From: JBFMHD01 sp040752395 [NCBI: Candidatus Hydrogenedentota bacterium]
GTDB taxonomy: Bacteria > JBFMHD01
DNA length: 5,264 nucleotides
Direction of reading: 5' to 3'
Assembly: GCA_040752395.1 (NCBI GenBank)
Contig: JBFMHD010000197.1
Span: 1 to 5,264, forward strand
In this document: positions 1-5,264 of the stretch, piece after piece
How the letters are laid out: each line of letters begins with the position of its first letter
How positions within the stretch are numbered: position 1 is the first letter of the stretch
The notes under the pieces: model-generated
The model's input: only the letters and a program-made list of their open reading frames with translations
What the model was told of the DNA's origin: nothing
Databases searched by the model: none
Position numbers and translations under genes: made by a program

Positions 1-1607
1 AACCTGATTTTAATGGGTTTATTGTTTTTATCAAATTTAACTATAAACAGACCAGGGTCAAAATATTCAGCATAAACCTTTTCATCTCTTGTATTTGATA
101 ACAGGTCATAACCTCGTATTTCTACTGGTTTACTAATTTTTAAAACACCAAGTATCGTTGGGAATATATCAAGTATAGTTGCGATAGAGTTATCCTCACC
201 TGTTATTAATCTGTCAGGATATAAAATCACCAGAGGTATTTTCAGTAGGTTATTATGTAAGGACCCCATATGTCCCCAGAGATTATGTTCAAAGATATTC
301 TCTCCGTGGTCCGAAGTAATGATTATCATTGATTTGTCAAATCTTTGTTTATCTCTGCTTAATATTTCGAAGAGATTTTTCAGGCAATCATCAAGATAAT
401 TTATAGCTGCGAGATAGTATTTATAAAAAAACGTTCTATCTTCTTGGGTATAAGTCAGTTTTGTATTTTTATCATATCTAATTTTTTTATATCTATTCAT
501 ATATTCATCTTTTGGTGGCTGATAACCCAGCCATTTATTTTTATAAGAATATGGCGAGACGTAAGGTTTATGGCATTCGAGCCAGTTAATAAAAATAAAT
601 CTTGGTCCTTTTTTATAAAAAAGCAAATTTTTAAGAAACTGTAACGACTGGTTAGCACCCATATCATGATCATCTAAATTCATAAAATAATGAAACAATC
701 TTAATAAAACAAAGTTATTTCTTACAAAGGGGAGAGAATAAAATCCTTTAAACCCGAGTATATTATGTATATTCAGAGCAACGATCGGATTAGCGCAGAG
801 TGCGTATGTGTTATAATCATTTTCAAGGAGTATCTCCTGGAGTGTAACCCAATCAGGGGACTCATCAAGCGTTTTATCACCGCTTACAGCTCCATGTTCG
901 GTTGTGTATTTAGAGGTAAAGAGCGAGGTATGAGCAGGGAGCGTCCAGGGCGAGACTGTGTAAGCATTATTATATACAACTGCTTTGTCTTTAAGTGTTT
1001 CAAGGAAGGGTGTGGTTTTTCTTTCTTTATAATAGAGCGAAACGTCTTTTTGTCTTAAAGTATCAAGGACTATTAAATATATATCAGGCTTCTCATTTTT
1101 GGTTGGTGCATCAAAACTGAGTAAACCCCAGAGAGTAATTAAAACTGCAAATATAAGAAAAAGGAGTCTGTTTTTCACTTCTAAATGGAGATTACGTTTA
1201 AGTCCTGATAATATAAGATAGATGCTTATAGCTAATAACGCTACACCCGAAGTCGCACCTGCTCCATGTAACGAAAAGATAGTGCATCTGGACGGCAATA
1301 CATCCCAGTTAATAACCAGTCCAACGGCTATAAATATAAAAAAAGCAAGTAGTAAAAGTTCGATATCTATTTTAAATTTTAAAAGCCTGTTAATTAACTT
1401 AAGGAAGAAACCAGAGGAGATAAAAAATAACGTATAAACAGCAAGAACATAAAGAAAGAATAAAATTTCATTGATAAGATGGTTCGGAAAGAGGTATAAT
1501 ATTTGTGGTCTATAAAGAAGATAGATATGTGTAGAGAAGATAAGATAAATTGTTTCAATAATGAGACAGATAAAACCTACTCTCAAAAAATCTTTGAAAT
1601 CTTTCAT
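1..1607 (-). CDS. Sulfatase-superfamily membrane phosphotransferase-like protein (3' end outside window)
   Basis: The minus-strand frame is open for 535 codons from ATG at 1607-1605 to the window edge, so the C-terminus is missing. Five hydrophobic stretches (about residues 11-30, 46-66, 83-100, 118-136, 147-165) precede a sulfatase/alkaline-phosphatase fold domain, the topology of LtaS and EptA. Visible motifs: LDTLR (D182), the nucleophile region WTLPAHTS (T222), H346 in CHKPY, and SDHGE (D433, H434) followed by GHMG (H446). The nucleophile position, two residues before the conserved Pro, is Thr, not the Cys/Ser needed for formylglycine. I infer a phospho-group transferase or phosphodiesterase acting outside the membrane, not a sulfatase; the substrate is unknown. 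An in-frame TAG at 1632-1634 limits the start; no well-spaced ribosome binding site is seen (GAG abuts the ATG). Its first codons overlap the B2-like gene head-to-head. A role in the neighbouring peptide pathway is possible but unproven. Confidence 0.88.
   Translation of the reverse strand, partial: MKDFKDFLRVGFICLIIETIYLIFSTHIYLLYRPQILYLFPNHLINEILFFLYVLAVYTLFFISSGFFLKLINRLLKFKIDIELLLLAFFIFIAVGLVINWDVLPSRCTIFSLHGAGATSGVALLAISIYLILSGLKRNLHLEVKNRLLFLIFAVLITLWGLLSFDAPTKNEKPDIYLIVLDTLRQKDVSLYYKERKTTPFLETLKDKAVVYNNAYTVSPWTLPAHTSLFTSKYTTEHGAVSGDKTLDESPDWVTLQEILLENDYNTYALCANPIVALNIHNILGFKGFYSLPFVRNNFVLLRLFHYFMNLDDHDMGANQSLQFLKNLLFYKKGPRFIFINWLECHKPYVSPYSYKNKWLGYQPPKDEYMNRYKKIRYDKNTKLTYTQEDRTFFYKYYLAAINYLDDCLKNLFEILSRDKQRFDKSMIIITSDHGENIFEHNLWGHMGSLHNNLLKIPLVILYPDRLITGEDNSIATILDIFPTILGVLKISKPVEIRGYDLLSNTRDEKVYAEYFDPGLFIVKFDKNNKPIKIR
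1471..1500 (+). promoter_or_regulatory. Putative sigma70-type promoter of the B2-like protease gene
   Basis: TTGATA at 1471-1476 and a perfect TATAAT at 1495-1500 are separated by 18 bases. Transcription would begin near 1507, placing the ATG at 1527 about 20 bases downstream and ruling out the TTG at 1503 as a start on this transcript. The promoter lies inside the 5' part of the sulfatase-like gene on the other strand. In AT-rich DNA such boxes occur by chance, but the exact -10 and the fitting position favour a real site. Confidence 0.5.
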
Positions 1608-1991
1608 CTCTTTTTTCTGTTTTGTTATGCTCTATATTTCAGAGTATATATTTTTATTTTACTAAAGACAAAGGGTCTTGATAAAGTACTGAGATCAATC
1701 AAGCCGCTTAATAATTTTTTTTCTTTTTTTATAAACTATATTAAAACCATTGAAAACTCAAGAATTTTAAATTTAATTAATTATACCTGCCTCTATAGGG
1801 CGCTTCTTATCTATAAGATATTATTAATTTCAGATGAGAAGCTCGAGTTTATTATAAGCGTCAAAAAAGATAGTAGTATTTTCAGTGCGCATAGCTGGAT
1901 AAAACATAAGAATACAATCCATCTTACTCCAAAAATAGAGGAATATAGTGAGATTTACGTTTTTAACAATAGGAGCAGAACTCAGGTATAG
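1527..1991 (+). CDS. Lasso B2-like transglutaminase-fold leader peptidase
   Basis: A 154-residue protein resembling the lasso-peptide B2 proteins (transglutaminase-like superfamily), which are cysteine proteases that cut the leader from a RiPP precursor. The N-terminal half has the usual hydrophobic helices (about residues 21-48, then KVLRSIKP). The catalytic half shows CLYRALLIYKILL with C88 as the likely nucleophile, then LEFIISVKK and FSAHSWIK with H122 as the likely catalytic His. The third acidic residue usually found about a dozen residues after the His is not obvious. ATG at 1527 is preferred: AAGAAG lies 6 bases upstream and a consensus promoter predicts a start site near 1507. A TTG at 1503 would add eight residues. 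The 3' end overlaps the precursor gene by 29 bases tail-to-tail; the 5' end overlaps the sulfatase-like gene by 81 bases head-to-head. It is inferred to process the adjacent precursor, delivered by the PqqD-like protein. Confidence 0.78.
   Translation: MCREDKINCFNNETDKTYSQKIFEIFHLFFLFCYALYFRVYIFILLKTKGLDKVLRSIKPLNNFFSFFINYIKTIENSRILNLINYTCLYRALLIYKILLISDEKLEFIISVKKDSSIFSAHSWIKHKNTIHLTPKIEEYSEIYVFNNRSRTQV
1643..1671 (-). promoter_or_regulatory. Possible promoter of the sulfatase-like gene
   Basis: On the minus strand TTGTCT (1671-1666) and TATACT (1648-1643) are 17 bases apart. This gives a start site near 1636 and a leader of about 29 bases before the ATG at 1607. It lies within the B2-like coding region. 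The -35 matches only four of six consensus bases, so this is tentative; read-through from the RRE operon is the alternative. Confidence 0.3.
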
Positions 1992-2145
1992 CGGTTCCGA
2001 CAGTCTGCGTGGTGCATCCACCTCCTCCTGCACAGCTTACATTAAGTGTCTCAGTGGGCGAGACCAGTGTTACTTTATCAATACTGCCGTATTTAATAAG
2101 AACAGGTTTTATAAATTTCTTCTTTTTTTTATAATTATCTTTCAT
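1963..2145 (-). CDS. RiPP precursor peptide with lasso-type leader and Cys/Gly core
   Basis: A 60-residue peptide read as the substrate of the adjacent radical SAM enzyme. The leader starts with a lysine run (residues 6-10), then F11-x2-P14-x-L16-x3-G20-x5-T26. This is the YxxPxLxxxGxxxxxT signature bound by lasso-pathway RRE (B1) proteins, with Phe for Tyr. After the hinge comes a small-residue core with four cysteines: C38 and C44 bracketing AGGGG, then C57 and C60 in a terminal CSYC. The start is fixed by an in-frame TGA two codons upstream. GAGGT sits directly against the ATG, unusually close, so translation is probably coupled to the radical SAM gene, whose TAA falls inside this gene's first codons (11-base overlap). 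The stop lies 29 bases inside the convergent B2-like gene. The modification is unknown; thioethers from the cysteines are the obvious guess. It is not an ordinary lasso core, since no cyclase is present in the window. Confidence 0.82.
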   Translation of the reverse strand: MKDNYKKKKKFIKPVLIKYGSIDKVTLVSPTETLNVSCAGGGGCTTQTVGTAIPEFCSYC

Positions 2146-3157
2146 ACCTCAATTTTGTGAACAGACACGATTGTTTAAATGGTTTTCTAAAATCACCATT
2201 ATTATCGCTATGTGCTAATCCCGGGCAAATAAAACAATCAGTTTTGAGCTTACATTTTGCGAAGCAACGTGTTTCAGTCAGAGAAAAATCAGCTAATTCC
2301 TTTAATTTTTCGTTATCATTCCAGAGCATTCCAAATCTTTTTTTAAACACATTCCCTGTTTTTAATCTCATACTTATACAGGGTAGAAGATCACCTGCTG
2401 CTGTGATCCCGGCAGTCGATTTAGCGAGACTGCAGCTTGTCTTTTTAACCTCACTCTCAATAATCTTTGCGCAATCTTTATACTCAACTAAATCACCTGT
2501 AATATTAATTATACTCTTTAATTGTGATTTTGCAAGTAAATGTTTCTGAATTTTTTTATTACCATTCCAATCAGGTGATATAAAATGCGAGTATCTAAAT
2601 GGGCATCCGAGTTTTTTAGAAAAATCCAGAACCGCTTCAAACTCTTTATAATTTTCTTTTAATAACTGCATTTTGAGATTTAATTTCAAGCCTTTATTTT
2701 TTGATAAGATGATATTATTAAAGACTATATCTCTTACCTCTTTTCCTGTGACATTTAAGTAAGTTTTTCCTGTGAACCCATAAATTGTTATATCCAGAGA
2801 AAAATAAGGATATTCCTTTAATTTATCTATCAGTTGAGGTGTCAGCAGCACCGCATTTGTAAATAAAATAACATTCATCTTCTTTTCCTGAATTATATAA
2901 TCAAGAATTTTTAAGATATCTTTATGCATCAGTGGTTCGCCGCCAGTGATAACAACTTCCAATGTCCCGGCCTCATAAACCTGCTCTATAACGTTTTTAA
3001 CTCTATCAAGTGTCATGAATAAATTTCTTTTATCAGGTGGTATATAACAATGGATACAATGTAGATTACATTTATTTGTAATTTCAAGCGAGATAAAAAG
3101 CGGGATTCTCTTTTTATTAAGTTTTGATTTAAGTACCGAGAATGGTCTAATCCTCAT
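2135..3157 (-). CDS. Radical SAM/SPASM peptide maturase
   Basis: A 340-residue radical S-adenosylmethionine enzyme. The Cx3Cx2C motif that binds the catalytic 4Fe-4S cluster is C30, C34, C37 (TNKCNLHCIHCY); the SAM-binding GGEP motif is at 72-75. A TIM-barrel core follows, then a C-terminal SPASM domain for auxiliary clusters: C242-x12-G255-x4-C260, then C298, C302, C308, C311 and C331. Enzymes of this build modify peptides (sactionine and ranthionine thioethers, the PqqE crosslink, mycofactocin). The start overlaps the stop of the PqqD-like gene as ATGA, with AGG four bases upstream, and its end overlaps the precursor gene by 11 bases. The three genes are thus very probably one translationally coupled operon. 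The cysteine spacing C-x3-C-x5-C-x2-C differs from the common C-x2-C-x5-C-x3-C. The substrate is inferred from position; the bond formed cannot be read from sequence. Confidence 0.93.
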   Translation of the reverse strand: MRIRPFSVLKSKLNKKRIPLFISLEITNKCNLHCIHCYIPPDKRNLFMTLDRVKNVIEQVYEAGTLEVVITGGEPLMHKDILKILDYIIQEKKMNVILFTNAVLLTPQLIDKLKEYPYFSLDITIYGFTGKTYLNVTGKEVRDIVFNNIILSKNKGLKLNLKMQLLKENYKEFEAVLDFSKKLGCPFRYSHFISPDWNGNKKIQKHLLAKSQLKSIINITGDLVEYKDCAKIIESEVKKTSCSLAKSTAGITAAGDLLPCISMRLKTGNVFKKRFGMLWNDNEKLKELADFSLTETRCFAKCKLKTDCFICPGLAHSDNNGDFRKPFKQSCLFTKLRYER

Positions 3158-3435
3158 ATAACCTGAATAAATCCTTCTTTAACCAGATCATTTAATAAAT
3201 CATCTATAGAAGCGGTTACAAGATCGATATCAGCATCATATTCATCACAACAGATATCAATGATTTCCTCGTATATTTTATTTTCAAAGAGTAGTTCCCA
3301 GATTCTCATACCGGTACTATTCAAGCTATAATAATGTTGTGTTTTAAAATTTAAAAATACGATCTCGTCACCGAAATTTTTCCATATCACCTTATCTGAA
3401 TTAATTTTAAACCTTTTTTTATTGAATTTTTTCAT
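3154..3435 (-). CDS. PqqD-like RiPP recognition element (RRE) protein
   Basis: A 93-residue PqqD-family winged-helix protein of normal length for a stand-alone RRE. Recognisable blocks are DKVIWKN and DEIVFLNF (the beta strands that grip the leader), HYYSLNSTGMRIWELL at 34-49, and a C-terminal helical part with DDLLNDLVKEGFI. Such proteins bind a precursor leader and present it to the modifying enzyme: PqqD to PqqE, MftB to MftC, and the lasso B1 protein to its B2 protease. Here one RRE may serve both the radical SAM enzyme next door and the B2-like protease, since the precursor leader has a lasso-type signature. It is the first gene of the minus-strand cluster, and its TGA overlaps the maturase ATG. 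There is no ribosome binding site before its ATG, and the predicted transcription start falls almost at the start codon. Confidence 0.9.
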   Translation of the reverse strand: MKKFNKKRFKINSDKVIWKNFGDEIVFLNFKTQHYYSLNSTGMRIWELLFENKIYEEIIDICCDEYDADIDLVTASIDDLLNDLVKEGFIQVI

Positions 3436-3442
3436 AGAATAT

Positions 3443-3471
3443 ATTATATAATTCTTTCAGGAACAATTCAA
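3443..3471 (-). promoter_or_regulatory. Promoter of the RRE-maturase-precursor operon (near-leaderless)
   Basis: On the minus strand TTGAAT (3471-3466) and a perfect TATAAT (3448-3443) are separated by 17 bases. The expected start of transcription is about 3436, next to the ATG at 3435, so the mRNA would be leaderless or nearly so. This agrees with the lack of any Shine-Dalgarno sequence before this gene. Confidence 0.55.
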
Positions 3472-3599: not shown

Positions 3600-3881
3600 A
3601 TGCAGAAGGTAAAATATGTTTGTAAAAGCTGTAATAAAATTATACCGGATAAAAAGACACGATATATACTTCAGATACAGCTGTTCGCAGATGGTGGCGT
3701 GTTTGAGCCTGATATTAATGATATGAATCGTGATTTAATAAAAGAGATGAAAGATTGTATAGCGCTTGCAAAGGACAAGAGTGAGGAAGAACTTAACTCT
3801 GAGATTTATGATGAATTTTATTTTATTTTATGTAAAAGCTGTCGTGATGAATTCTATAAAAAAATCAAGAAATTAATATGA
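3600..3881 (+). CDS. Small hypothetical protein with paired CKSC zinc knuckles
   Basis: A 93-residue acidic/basic protein of unknown function. It has two identical CKSC motifs, C8-C11 near the N-terminus and C78-C81 near the C-terminus, the pattern of a zinc ribbon in which both ends of the chain come together on one metal. Between them lie an ILQIQLF strand and a charged, probably helical middle (about 39-70) with an additional C53. No membrane or signal segment is seen. The ATG is preceded by an A-rich stretch without a clear ribosome binding site. It is divergent from the RRE gene across 164 bases and convergent with rdgB, leaving one base between the two stop codons. Nothing ties it to the peptide pathway. 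The open frame, the conserved-looking metal sites and the tight fit to rdgB make it likely to be a real gene; the function cannot be assigned. Confidence 0.75.
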   Translation: MQKVKYVCKSCNKIIPDKKTRYILQIQLFADGGVFEPDINDMNRDLIKEMKDCIALAKDKSEEELNSEIYDEFYFILCKSCRDEFYKKIKKLI

Positions 3882-3882
3882 A

Positions 3883-4500
3883 TCAACTCAGGAACTCTAA
3901 CATTTTTCTTATTGCGCGGGCACGATGTGATAACTCATCCTTTTCTTTAGGTTCCATTTCAGCGAACGTTCGGCCATCACCTTCATCTGGAACAAATATA
4001 GGGTCATAACCAAACCCATTCTTACCCCGTGGTTCAGATGCTATCTTACCTCTGACTTCGCCTCTGAACTTATAAACTTTATCGTTTCTGGAATTATATA
4101 ATACTAAAACACAGACAAATTTCGCTTTTCTATTTTTTTTATTTTTTAGTTTTTTAAGGAGATATTGACATCGTTCTTTATCATCTTTAATACCGCCATA
4201 CCGCGATGAATTTATTCCTGGTTCTCCTTTTAATGCGCTAACACATAAACCAGAATCATCAGAGACTATATGGAGGTGTTCAAAATTTTGAACCACTCCA
4301 TAAGCATCTGCAAACACCCTTGCTTTTAATAATGCATTCTTATAAAAACTTCTCGCTGTCTCAATCTCGTTTGTATCAATGTTTTTTATTTTGAGATACT
4401 CATTTATTATTTTTATTAATTTGTTGTTCCCTATAATTCGTTTGATTTCTTTTATCTTTGCTTTATTCGTAGTTGCAACAATGACTTCTATTGTTTTCAT
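3883..4500 (-). CDS. rdgB: XTP/dITP diphosphatase (Ham1/RdgB family)
   Basis: A 205-residue house-cleaning nucleotide pyrophosphatase that hydrolyses XTP, dITP and ITP to monophosphates plus pyrophosphate, keeping deaminated purines out of DNA and RNA in the cytoplasm. Family signatures: ATTNKAK at 9-15 (phosphate binding), EIETARSFYKNALLKA at 45-60 (usually ETGxTFxENAxxKA), SDDSGLCV at 80-87 with the metal-binding acidic pair, GEPGINSSRYGG at 92-103, GFGYDPIF at 162-169 (base recognition), and SHRARA at 191-196. Length is normal, and the start MKTIEVIVATTNK matches the family. It follows rph after 24 bases on the same strand, a common pairing, so co-transcription is likely. No Shine-Dalgarno sequence is evident in that gap. 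A slight divergence is Ala-Arg replacing the usual Gly-x in the ETG motif. Confidence 0.96.
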   Translation of the reverse strand: MKTIEVIVATTNKAKIKEIKRIIGNNKLIKIINEYLKIKNIDTNEIETARSFYKNALLKARVFADAYGVVQNFEHLHIVSDDSGLCVSALKGEPGINSSRYGGIKDDKERCQYLLKKLKNKKNRKAKFVCVLVLYNSRNDKVYKFRGEVRGKIASEPRGKNGFGYDPIFVPDEGDGRTFAEMEPKEKDELSHRARAIRKMLEFLS

Positions 4501-4524: not shown

Positions 4525-5250
4525 TTATAATAATTGGTGTGCGAGTAAATTCTTTTCTGCTTTGATCAGCTGTTGTATGCCGTACCAGCCATATTCTATC
4601 ATTCTATCAAGCTGTTTTTTATCAAAGACCTCTTCTTCACCAGTTGCCTGTACCTCAACCAATTCTTTCTTATCAGTCATAACAAGATTCATATCAACGC
4701 TACAAGCAGAATCTTCTTCATAGTTAAGATCAAGTATAACCTCGCCATCAAGTATGCCAACACTTATAGCAGCTAAATATCTTTCAACAGGCATTTTTTC
4801 AATAACATTCTCTTTTAAAAGTTTTCTCAAAGCTAAAACAAGTGCAATAAATCCACCTGTAATAGAAGCTGTCCGTGTGCCGCCATCTGCCTGCAATACA
4901 TCACAATCAATTATTATGTGTTTCTCCGGGATAAGGCTTAAATCAACAACTGCTCTCAAACTTCTTCCTATCAGTCTTTGAATCTCATGGGTTCTGCCTT
5001 TTATCTTGCCTTTTACCGATTCCCGAGGCACCCTTGTCTGTGAAGACCTCGGCAACATCGAATATTCAGCATCGATCCAGCCTTTACCTGTATCTTTAAT
5101 AAAAGGCGGCACATATTCATCAAGTGTTGCGCAACATAAAACCTGCGTGCTACCCATTTTAATAAGAGATGAACCTTCAGCGTATTTATTTGGGTTTAAA
5201 ATAATCTCAAATGGTCTAATTTCTTTTTGTTTTCGTCTGTCAGCTCTCAC
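4525..5250 (-). CDS. rph: Ribonuclease PH
   Basis: A 241-residue phosphorolytic 3'-5' exoribonuclease that trims tRNA 3' ends, using phosphate and releasing nucleoside diphosphates; members work as ring-shaped hexamers in the cytoplasm. The whole protein aligns by eye with the family: N-terminal RADRR, STQVLCCATL, AEYSMLPRSS, GRTHEIQRLIGRSLR (85-99, R86), DCDVLQADGGTRTASITG (115-132, with the GTR phosphate site at 124-126), EEDSACSVDMN (178-188, D180 and D186 as metal/catalytic acids), and VEVQATGEE. The start is GTG at 5250-5248, nine bases after AGGAG at 5264-5260, at the very edge of the window; the family N-terminus R-x-D-x-R fits this start. It is the upstream member of the rph-rdgB pair. 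Confidence 0.97.
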   Translation of the reverse strand: MRADRRKQKEIRPFEIILNPNKYAEGSSLIKMGSTQVLCCATLDEYVPPFIKDTGKGWIDAEYSMLPRSSQTRVPRESVKGKIKGRTHEIQRLIGRSLRAVVDLSLIPEKHIIIDCDVLQADGGTRTASITGGFIALVLALRKLLKENVIEKMPVERYLAAISVGILDGEVILDLNYEEDSACSVDMNLVMTDKKELVEVQATGEEEVFDKKQLDRMIEYGWYGIQQLIKAEKNLLAHQLL

Positions 5251-5259
5251 GATAGTTAT

Positions 5260-5264
5260 CTCCT
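5260..5264 (-). promoter_or_regulatory. Ribosome binding site of rph
   Basis: AGGAG on the minus strand lies nine bases before the GTG start of rph and supports that non-ATG start. It is the clearest Shine-Dalgarno sequence in the window and is cut by the window end. Confidence 0.75.

Follow-up and report, generated by a model that had tools for sequence, protein, structure and literature searches.

Positions 1 to 5,264 of contig JBFMHD010000197.1 from a Candidatus Hydrogenedentota bacterium (hereafter the window, 5,264 nt) encode a predicted pathway for a ribosomally synthesized and post-translationally modified peptide (RiPP), comprising a PqqD-like RiPP recognition element (RRE), a radical S-adenosylmethionine (SAM)/SPASM enzyme, a 60-aa precursor and a B2-like leader peptidase. 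With somewhat better than even confidence, we read it as a RiPP locus in which one lasso-type RRE serves the radical SAM/SPASM enzyme and then the B2-like peptidase, yielding a linear crosslinked product. The discrete RRE would bind the FxxPxL leader of the precursor and present it to the two enzymes in turn, probably to the radical SAM enzyme first and the peptidase second. The radical SAM/SPASM enzyme, which lacks an RRE of its own, would act on the Cys-rich core, most likely introducing thioether crosslinks, and the B2-like cysteine peptidase would cut after Thr26-Leu27, releasing the linear crosslinked peptide. No lasso ring would be formed.

Eight ORFs (open reading frames) of the window were scanned against the NCBIfam and Pfam family profiles. 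All four genes of the original prediction are present and packed together. The RRE (93 aa, 3154-3435, assigned by profile and solved-structure matches), the radical SAM/SPASM maturase (340 aa, 2135-3157, assigned by profile matches and cysteine positions) and the precursor (60 aa, 1963-2145, an ORF with a lasso-type leader register) lie on the minus strand, and the B2-like leader peptidase, a predicted transglutaminase-fold cysteine protease (154 aa, 1527-1991), lies on the plus strand. The RRE and radical SAM genes overlap by 4 nt, and the 3' end of the radical SAM gene overlaps the first codons of the precursor by 11 nt, forming a compact minus-strand operon with the precursor last; a promoter-like sequence upstream of it (3443-3471, minus strand) is a consensus match only, at 10/12 positions. 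The B2-like gene is convergent with the precursor gene (29-nt 3' overlap) and head to head with a sulfatase-domain gene (81-nt 5' overlap). The gene content of the predicted four-gene locus thus stands, but the four do not form one operon, as the B2-like gene runs on the plus strand, convergent with the other three. No asparagine-synthetase-like macrolactam cyclase was found among the eight ORFs, which bears out the predicted lack of a lasso cyclase for the window only.

The RRE scored 56 bits against PF05402 (E=5.2e-15; gathering score 23.4), and its closest solved relative was the lasso RRE TbiB1 (5v1u, E=7.8e-13). Lasso models were its best matches in NCBIfam, all under their cut-offs, with lasso_PqqD_Bac the highest at 46 bits (cut-off 80). 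Judged by sequence, it is a PqqD-fold, lasso-type discrete RRE, in agreement with the original prediction. In crystal structures of LppB, Asp70 hydrogen-bonds the leader Tyr (PMC13381572). In an alignment of RREs, the Asp70-equivalent residue was Asp in TbiB1 and in 8/8 loci with an accepted YxxP precursor (L038, L043, L048, L071, L072, L081, L082 and L117, chosen by eye), and Gln in the Trp-type RRE PbaB1. The Y-type matches in L039, L052, L053 and L066, where the RRE lacks this Asp, were taken as chance ORFs, and the fraction becomes 8/12 if they are counted; L065, which has three RREs, was omitted, and no RRE was aligned for L036 and L047, whose precursors are of the YxxP kind. In the window, the leader Phe is paired with a Ser at the equivalent position of the RRE, and the RRE pocket and Phe leader would fit a cognate pair, in a comparison that offers a single case and by-eye selection.

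The precursor reads ...FIKPVLIKYGSIDKVTL-VSPTETLNVSCAGGGGCTTQTVGTAIPEFCSYC, with the predicted cut after Leu27, which divides it into a predicted leader of residues 1-27 (2065-2145, minus strand) and a predicted core of 33 aa (1966-2064, minus strand). Counted from this cut, Phe-17, Pro-14, Leu-12, Gly-8 and Thr-2 stand in the lasso register, and FIKPVLIKYGSIDKVTL carries the YxxPx[L/V/I] plus Thr-2 feature of lasso leaders with Phe replacing Tyr. The relaxed motif [YFW]xxPx[LIVM]xxxGxxxxx[TSVI] arose in 284/200000 shuffles of the precursor and the strict motif in 106/200000, and the leader motif was found in none of the other window ORFs of at least 20 aa. Among the family models, only the NCBIfam lasso leader model NF033521 matched the precursor, at a sub-threshold E value of 0.12. 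The predicted core contains four Cys (precursor residues 38, 44, 57 and 60), and its only Glu residues are at core positions 5 and 28. In lasso peptides, an Asp or Glu at core positions 7-9 serves as ring acceptor; the predicted core, given the predicted cleavage site, has no Asp or Glu there. The acceptor is described at core position 8 or 9 (PMC4289311). The putative RRE-binding motif FIKPVL (2098-2115, minus strand) follows the motif in PMC13381572; the consensus given there for precursors of linear polyphosphorylated peptides (LPPs), YxxPxVLxHQxIxFETxxS, was not matched by the window precursor when compared by eye.

The maturase scored 88 bits against the radical SAM family PF04055 (cut-off 29.5) and 26.7 bits against the SPASM family PF13186 (cut-off 21.5), confirming that part of the prediction. 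Its CX3CX2C motif, CNLHCIHC, starts at residue 30 and leaves no room for a fused N-terminal RRE, and SPASM-type cysteines are at residues 242, 260, 298, 302, 308, 311 and 331. The enzyme matched 95 NCBIfam families, and the 25 listed all scored below their own cut-offs, so none of those family names fits it. The nearest solved chain was 5v1q (E=3.6e-8, residues 12-182), a record titled 'Radical SAM', which we take to be the thioether maturase CteB. A radical SAM enzyme with a SPASM domain beside a Cys-rich core corresponds to the gene features of sactipeptides and ranthipeptides, and thioether crosslinking of the core Cys is the most likely reaction of this enzyme.

The shared use of one RRE has a precedent, since the lasso RRE BsfB1 accelerates a tailoring kinase and also assists B2 (PMC10368454). 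Additionally, the lasso protease requires its RRE (PMC10885120).

The set recurs in an independent locus, L072, in a genome that shares its class with Thermoanaerobacter (the class that includes G001 and G010). Here, the genes run in one direction in the order precursor, B2, RRE, radical SAM/SPASM, HprK-like kinase and two ABC-type genes; the HprK-like matches are below cut-off, and the two ABC-type genes are named from sequence only. The precursor, preceded by a Shine-Dalgarno-like AAGGAGG, has 36 aa, with the leader YVKPEIIEIGNLETVVL (YVKPEI...), Val at -2 and a core with two Cys (CRTWC). The Val has a precedent, as Ile or Val at -2 is on record in lasso leaders (PMC10368454). The B2 scored 39.8 bits, over the family cut-off of 33. 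No cyclase-profile match was found in the 16 kb of L072 or in 16.6 kb on either side. Only one gene of this genome matches the lasso cyclase model; it is located about 573 kb from the locus and scored 486.9 bits against the asparagine synthase model TIGR01536 (cut-off 267.1) versus 237 against the lasso model, whereas a gene beside B2 in genome G561 scored 228.5 against the lasso model versus 177.7 against TIGR01536. The lasso model score alone is not decisive, because lasso-associated cyclases in G304 and G561 also fall below its cut-off. By its scores, the sole match in the L072 genome is an ordinary asparagine synthase.

The frequency of the combination was assessed by a survey of genome samples, which overlap, with NF033537 as the query. 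B2 matches were found in 19/198 genomes of the Bacteroidota-phylum sample, 8/348 of the phylum of G001, 4/149 of the phylum of G006 (overlapping the G001 phylum sample), 1/13 of the order and 2/37 of the class of G530, 2/97 of the class of G392, 1/11 of the order of G724, 13/391 of the class of G002 (7 over cut-off) and 56/398 of the class of G004 (54 over cut-off). We annotated 73 B2 ORFs (41 + 32) with our own profiles over about 7-8 kb per side, less at contig ends. The class of G004 held 69 B2 places, 32 of which were annotated (3 below the family cut-off) and 37 left out (35 high-scoring, 4 of them already among the 41, and 2 weak); 8 below-cut-off places in the class of G002 were left out, and L073 (G418, a place below cut-off) has no B2 ORF and is not among the 73. 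A cyclase-profile match, sometimes a fragment only, was in range of 23/41 and 30/32 B2 ORFs (53/73 together), which indicates that the cyclase profile works. The other 20 had no such match in range, with L037, L082 and L117 short of room on one side. None of the 23 Bacteroidota-phylum B2 ORFs and none of the 32 Bacilli B2 ORFs belongs to a cyclase-less set with a SPASM enzyme. The results showed that B2 with an RRE and a SPASM-type radical SAM enzyme, lacking a cyclase, recurs, but rarely.

The B2-like ORF carries much of the argument. Two libraries picked B2 families for it at E values of about 1e-4, and an iterated profile of other B2s gave it 24.6 bits, whereas none of 2000 shuffled versions of the protein exceeded 9.5 bits. 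It keeps Cys88, His122 and Trp124, which are three of the four columns invariant across 40 B2 ORFs from other genomes, in the correct order (Cys-x33-His-x-Trp), and its frame is intact over 154 codons. Several observations weigh against this assignment and the pathway built on it. The ORF scored 22.9 bits against NF033537 (lasso_biosyn_B2; cut-off 33) and 22.4 bits against PF13471 (Transglut_core3; cut-off 26), Ser111 replaces a Gly present in 40/40 other B2s, the predicted structure is of low confidence (pLDDT 55.9), and the gene lies outside the RRE-radical SAM-precursor operon. The window has no transporter gene; only 1/20 cyclase-less B2 ORFs, that of L072, has an adjacent SPASM-type radical SAM gene (294 bp away); and the radical SAM enzyme, RRE and B2 of L072 are only about 25% identical to those of the window, so L072 shows recurrence of the combination and not close kinship. 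A search of genome contigs with the window radical SAM enzyme returned 10 relatives at 22-31% identity and no closer one. A search of solved structures with the B2-like protein gave no meaningful match. On balance, the gene is probably a divergent B2, of predicted activity and fold. The original prediction of one leader serving two enzymes through a shared RRE is thus favoured by the lasso register, the RRE type, the RRE-less radical SAM enzyme, L072 and the Bsf precedent, and weakened by the strand, the cut-offs and Ser111 of the B2-like gene. The predicted release of a radical-SAM-modified peptide by lasso-type cleavage agrees with the retained Cys and His, while cleavage and crosslinking themselves are what we infer.

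The same weaknesses, namely the opposite strand, the sub-threshold scores and the lost Gly, would be explained if this were an ordinary radical SAM/SPASM pathway with an unlinked protease, and the B2-like gene were a leftover of a lasso locus, divergent or decaying and with no role. This reading also gains from the RRE-Finder study, which reports about 300 RREs of lasso type next to radical SAM enzymes and treats them as false positives of the lasso RRE model (PMC7470986). We consider it unlikely, though a serious alternative. A remnant sits poorly with the intact frame and retained Cys, His and Trp, and with a leader that keeps Thr-2, a conservation explained by the complex of RRE, peptidase and leader (PMC10885120). 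L072, moreover, carries B2 within the same gene run. As weak evidence, a promoter-like sequence (1471-1500, plus strand), inside the 5' part of the sulfatase gene, ends 26 nt upstream of the B2-like gene; it is a consensus match only (11/12) and scores best among 18 promoter-like matches in the scanned region, where 12.9 were expected.

It is improbable that the window gives a partial view of a lasso pathway in which the cyclase gene lies elsewhere and the radical SAM enzyme has a tailoring role. The leader, RRE and B2 of the window are all lasso-type, and in genome G304 (L065, 7549-9757) a lasso set with a cyclase, B2 and a Gln-type RRE is followed by an Asp-type second RRE and a SPASM-type radical SAM gene. 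However, the predicted core offers no Asp or Glu at positions 7-9, the cluster is flanked by sulfatase-domain, rdgB and rph genes, and the L072 genome holds no cyclase-model match other than its asparagine synthase. Least probable of all is that the B2-like ORF is an open frame that arose by chance on the strand opposite its neighbors, since, although it overlaps them at both ends and scores under the family cut-offs, about 355 bp of it overlap none of the other named genes, two libraries select B2 families for it, and it combines the ordered Cys-x33-His-x-Trp with a profile score above all 2000 shuffles.

Relatives of the radical SAM enzyme were also examined for accompanying B2 genes. Within the stretches of the 10 genome-contig relatives, phmmer, an insensitive test here, found neither the window B2 nor the window RRE, and 1/10 of these genomes had a B2 family match, which adjoins a cyclase. 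Viral contigs contained one relative at 28% identity. In plasmids, 175 records matched the radical SAM enzyme, all at <60% identity (best row 25.4%), and no B2 annotation was present in the three plasmid neighborhoods examined. Plasmid searches with the window B2 and with the L072 B2 gave no match; a search with one lasso B2 gave 5 records, and 2/2 examined have an asparagine synthase-related protein nearby.

The survey also brought out a second pattern, consisting of an RRE, B2, an HprK-like gene, DUF362, a B12-type radical SAM gene and peptides with a YEKP leader, with no cyclase match nearby. It was seen in L071 (7829-11142, G392), L082 (2-4423, G635, on a 4.8-kb contig) and L117 (6363-13013, G724), and of the HprK matches, that of L082 exceeds the cut-off and those of L071 and L117 do not. 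Searched genome-wide with the lasso cyclase model, G392 gave no match and G635 gave several unsorted matches below cut-off. L117 has a SPASM-maturase-like gene 4.7 kb from B2, behind other genes, and the radical SAM match at 4.6 kb in L071 is MoaA-like. Tentatively, the lasso RRE-B2 pair may be a portable recognition and cutting module that has been coupled repeatedly, with no cyclase, to SPASM enzymes acting on Cys-containing cores (window, L072) and to B12-type radical SAM enzymes (L071, L082, L117). The SPASM form would then be an uncharacterized RiPP class of thioether peptides freed by a lasso-type peptidase.

Further loci differed in composition. L044, L045, L046, L050 and L052 of the Bacteroidota-phylum sample contain an RRE and B2 in conserved surroundings with no cyclase or radical SAM profile match, and an HprK-like gene is present in L044 (below cut-off) and L050. 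L047 (3844-4047) and L048 (7565-7816) encode YxxP-leader peptides with a common AEYGGLD...FAMASP core, and no cyclase match was found within about 6-8 kb of their B2 genes. LPP-like peptides (YVKP...FET) lie further along in L065. ORFs with the CX3CX2C pattern only occur in L041, L045 and L112, and in L158, where a cyclase is present, a radical SAM profile match lies at a distance of 6.2 kb.

The remaining genes of the window flank the RiPP cluster. On one side is the sulfatase-domain gene (3-1607, minus strand), which has a hydrophobic N-terminal region and is cut by the window edge. On the other side are rdgB (3883-4500, minus strand) and rph (4525-5262, minus strand). The RNase PH of the window showed 54-58% identity to 4/5 Bacillota genomes compared and a weak match or none to the other 9 of 13 genomes, which did not settle its placement, and viral contigs gave no RNase PH match. 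Between the RiPP operon and rdgB lies a small Cys-pair protein of 93 aa with two CKSC motifs (3600-3881, plus strand) and no family over cut-off. The G+C content of the window is 32.7%, and an Rfam search of it gave no match.

Compared with known systems, the window resembles the split B1/B2 lasso systems (TbiB1, paeninodin, Bsf) in its discrete RRE, YxxPxL...T-2 register and B2-like cysteine peptidase, but differs in that no cyclase was found in it and the predicted core has no Asp or Glu at positions 7-9, with a radical SAM/SPASM enzyme and a Cys-rich core instead. It shares the radical SAM domain, SPASM cysteines and Cys-rich core with the sactipeptide/ranthipeptide maturases CteB, SkfB, AlbA and StsB, but its enzyme has no fused N-terminal RRE and adjoins a lasso-type leader and a B2-like peptidase. 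LPPs are likewise cyclase-less, with a discrete lasso-type RRE and a YxxP leader; their product is thought to be linear, and their peptidase needs presentation by the RRE (PMC13381572). LPP loci, however, encode a signal-peptidase-I-like peptidase, an HprK kinase and an NTP transferase, in place of the B2-like peptidase and radical SAM enzyme of the window, and none of these three was found among the eight window ORFs scanned. The RRE-Finder loci also place a discrete lasso-type RRE next to a radical SAM enzyme, but B2 is not reported with them in the available description (PMC7470986), whereas the window has a B2-like gene. A search of open-licence literature turned up no description of B2 paired with a SPASM-type radical SAM enzyme and lacking a cyclase, which is weak evidence of absence. 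The concept is less new than claimed, because lasso-type RREs beside radical SAM enzymes (PMC7470986) and cyclase-less pathways with lasso-type RREs (PMC13381572) are in print. The locus is a set of known parts in a combination that we did not find described, with one independent recurrence.

Applied to Bacillota and to the Bacteroidota-phylum sample, the search rule of B2 plus RRE with no cyclase pointed to additional uncharacterized peptide loci. If the proposed pathway is correct, it would assign a defined protease to a radical SAM peptide pathway and offer a system of one RRE and two enzymes to dissect. B2 would then not be confined to lasso peptides, but would be an RRE-dependent leader peptidase usable by other chemistries.

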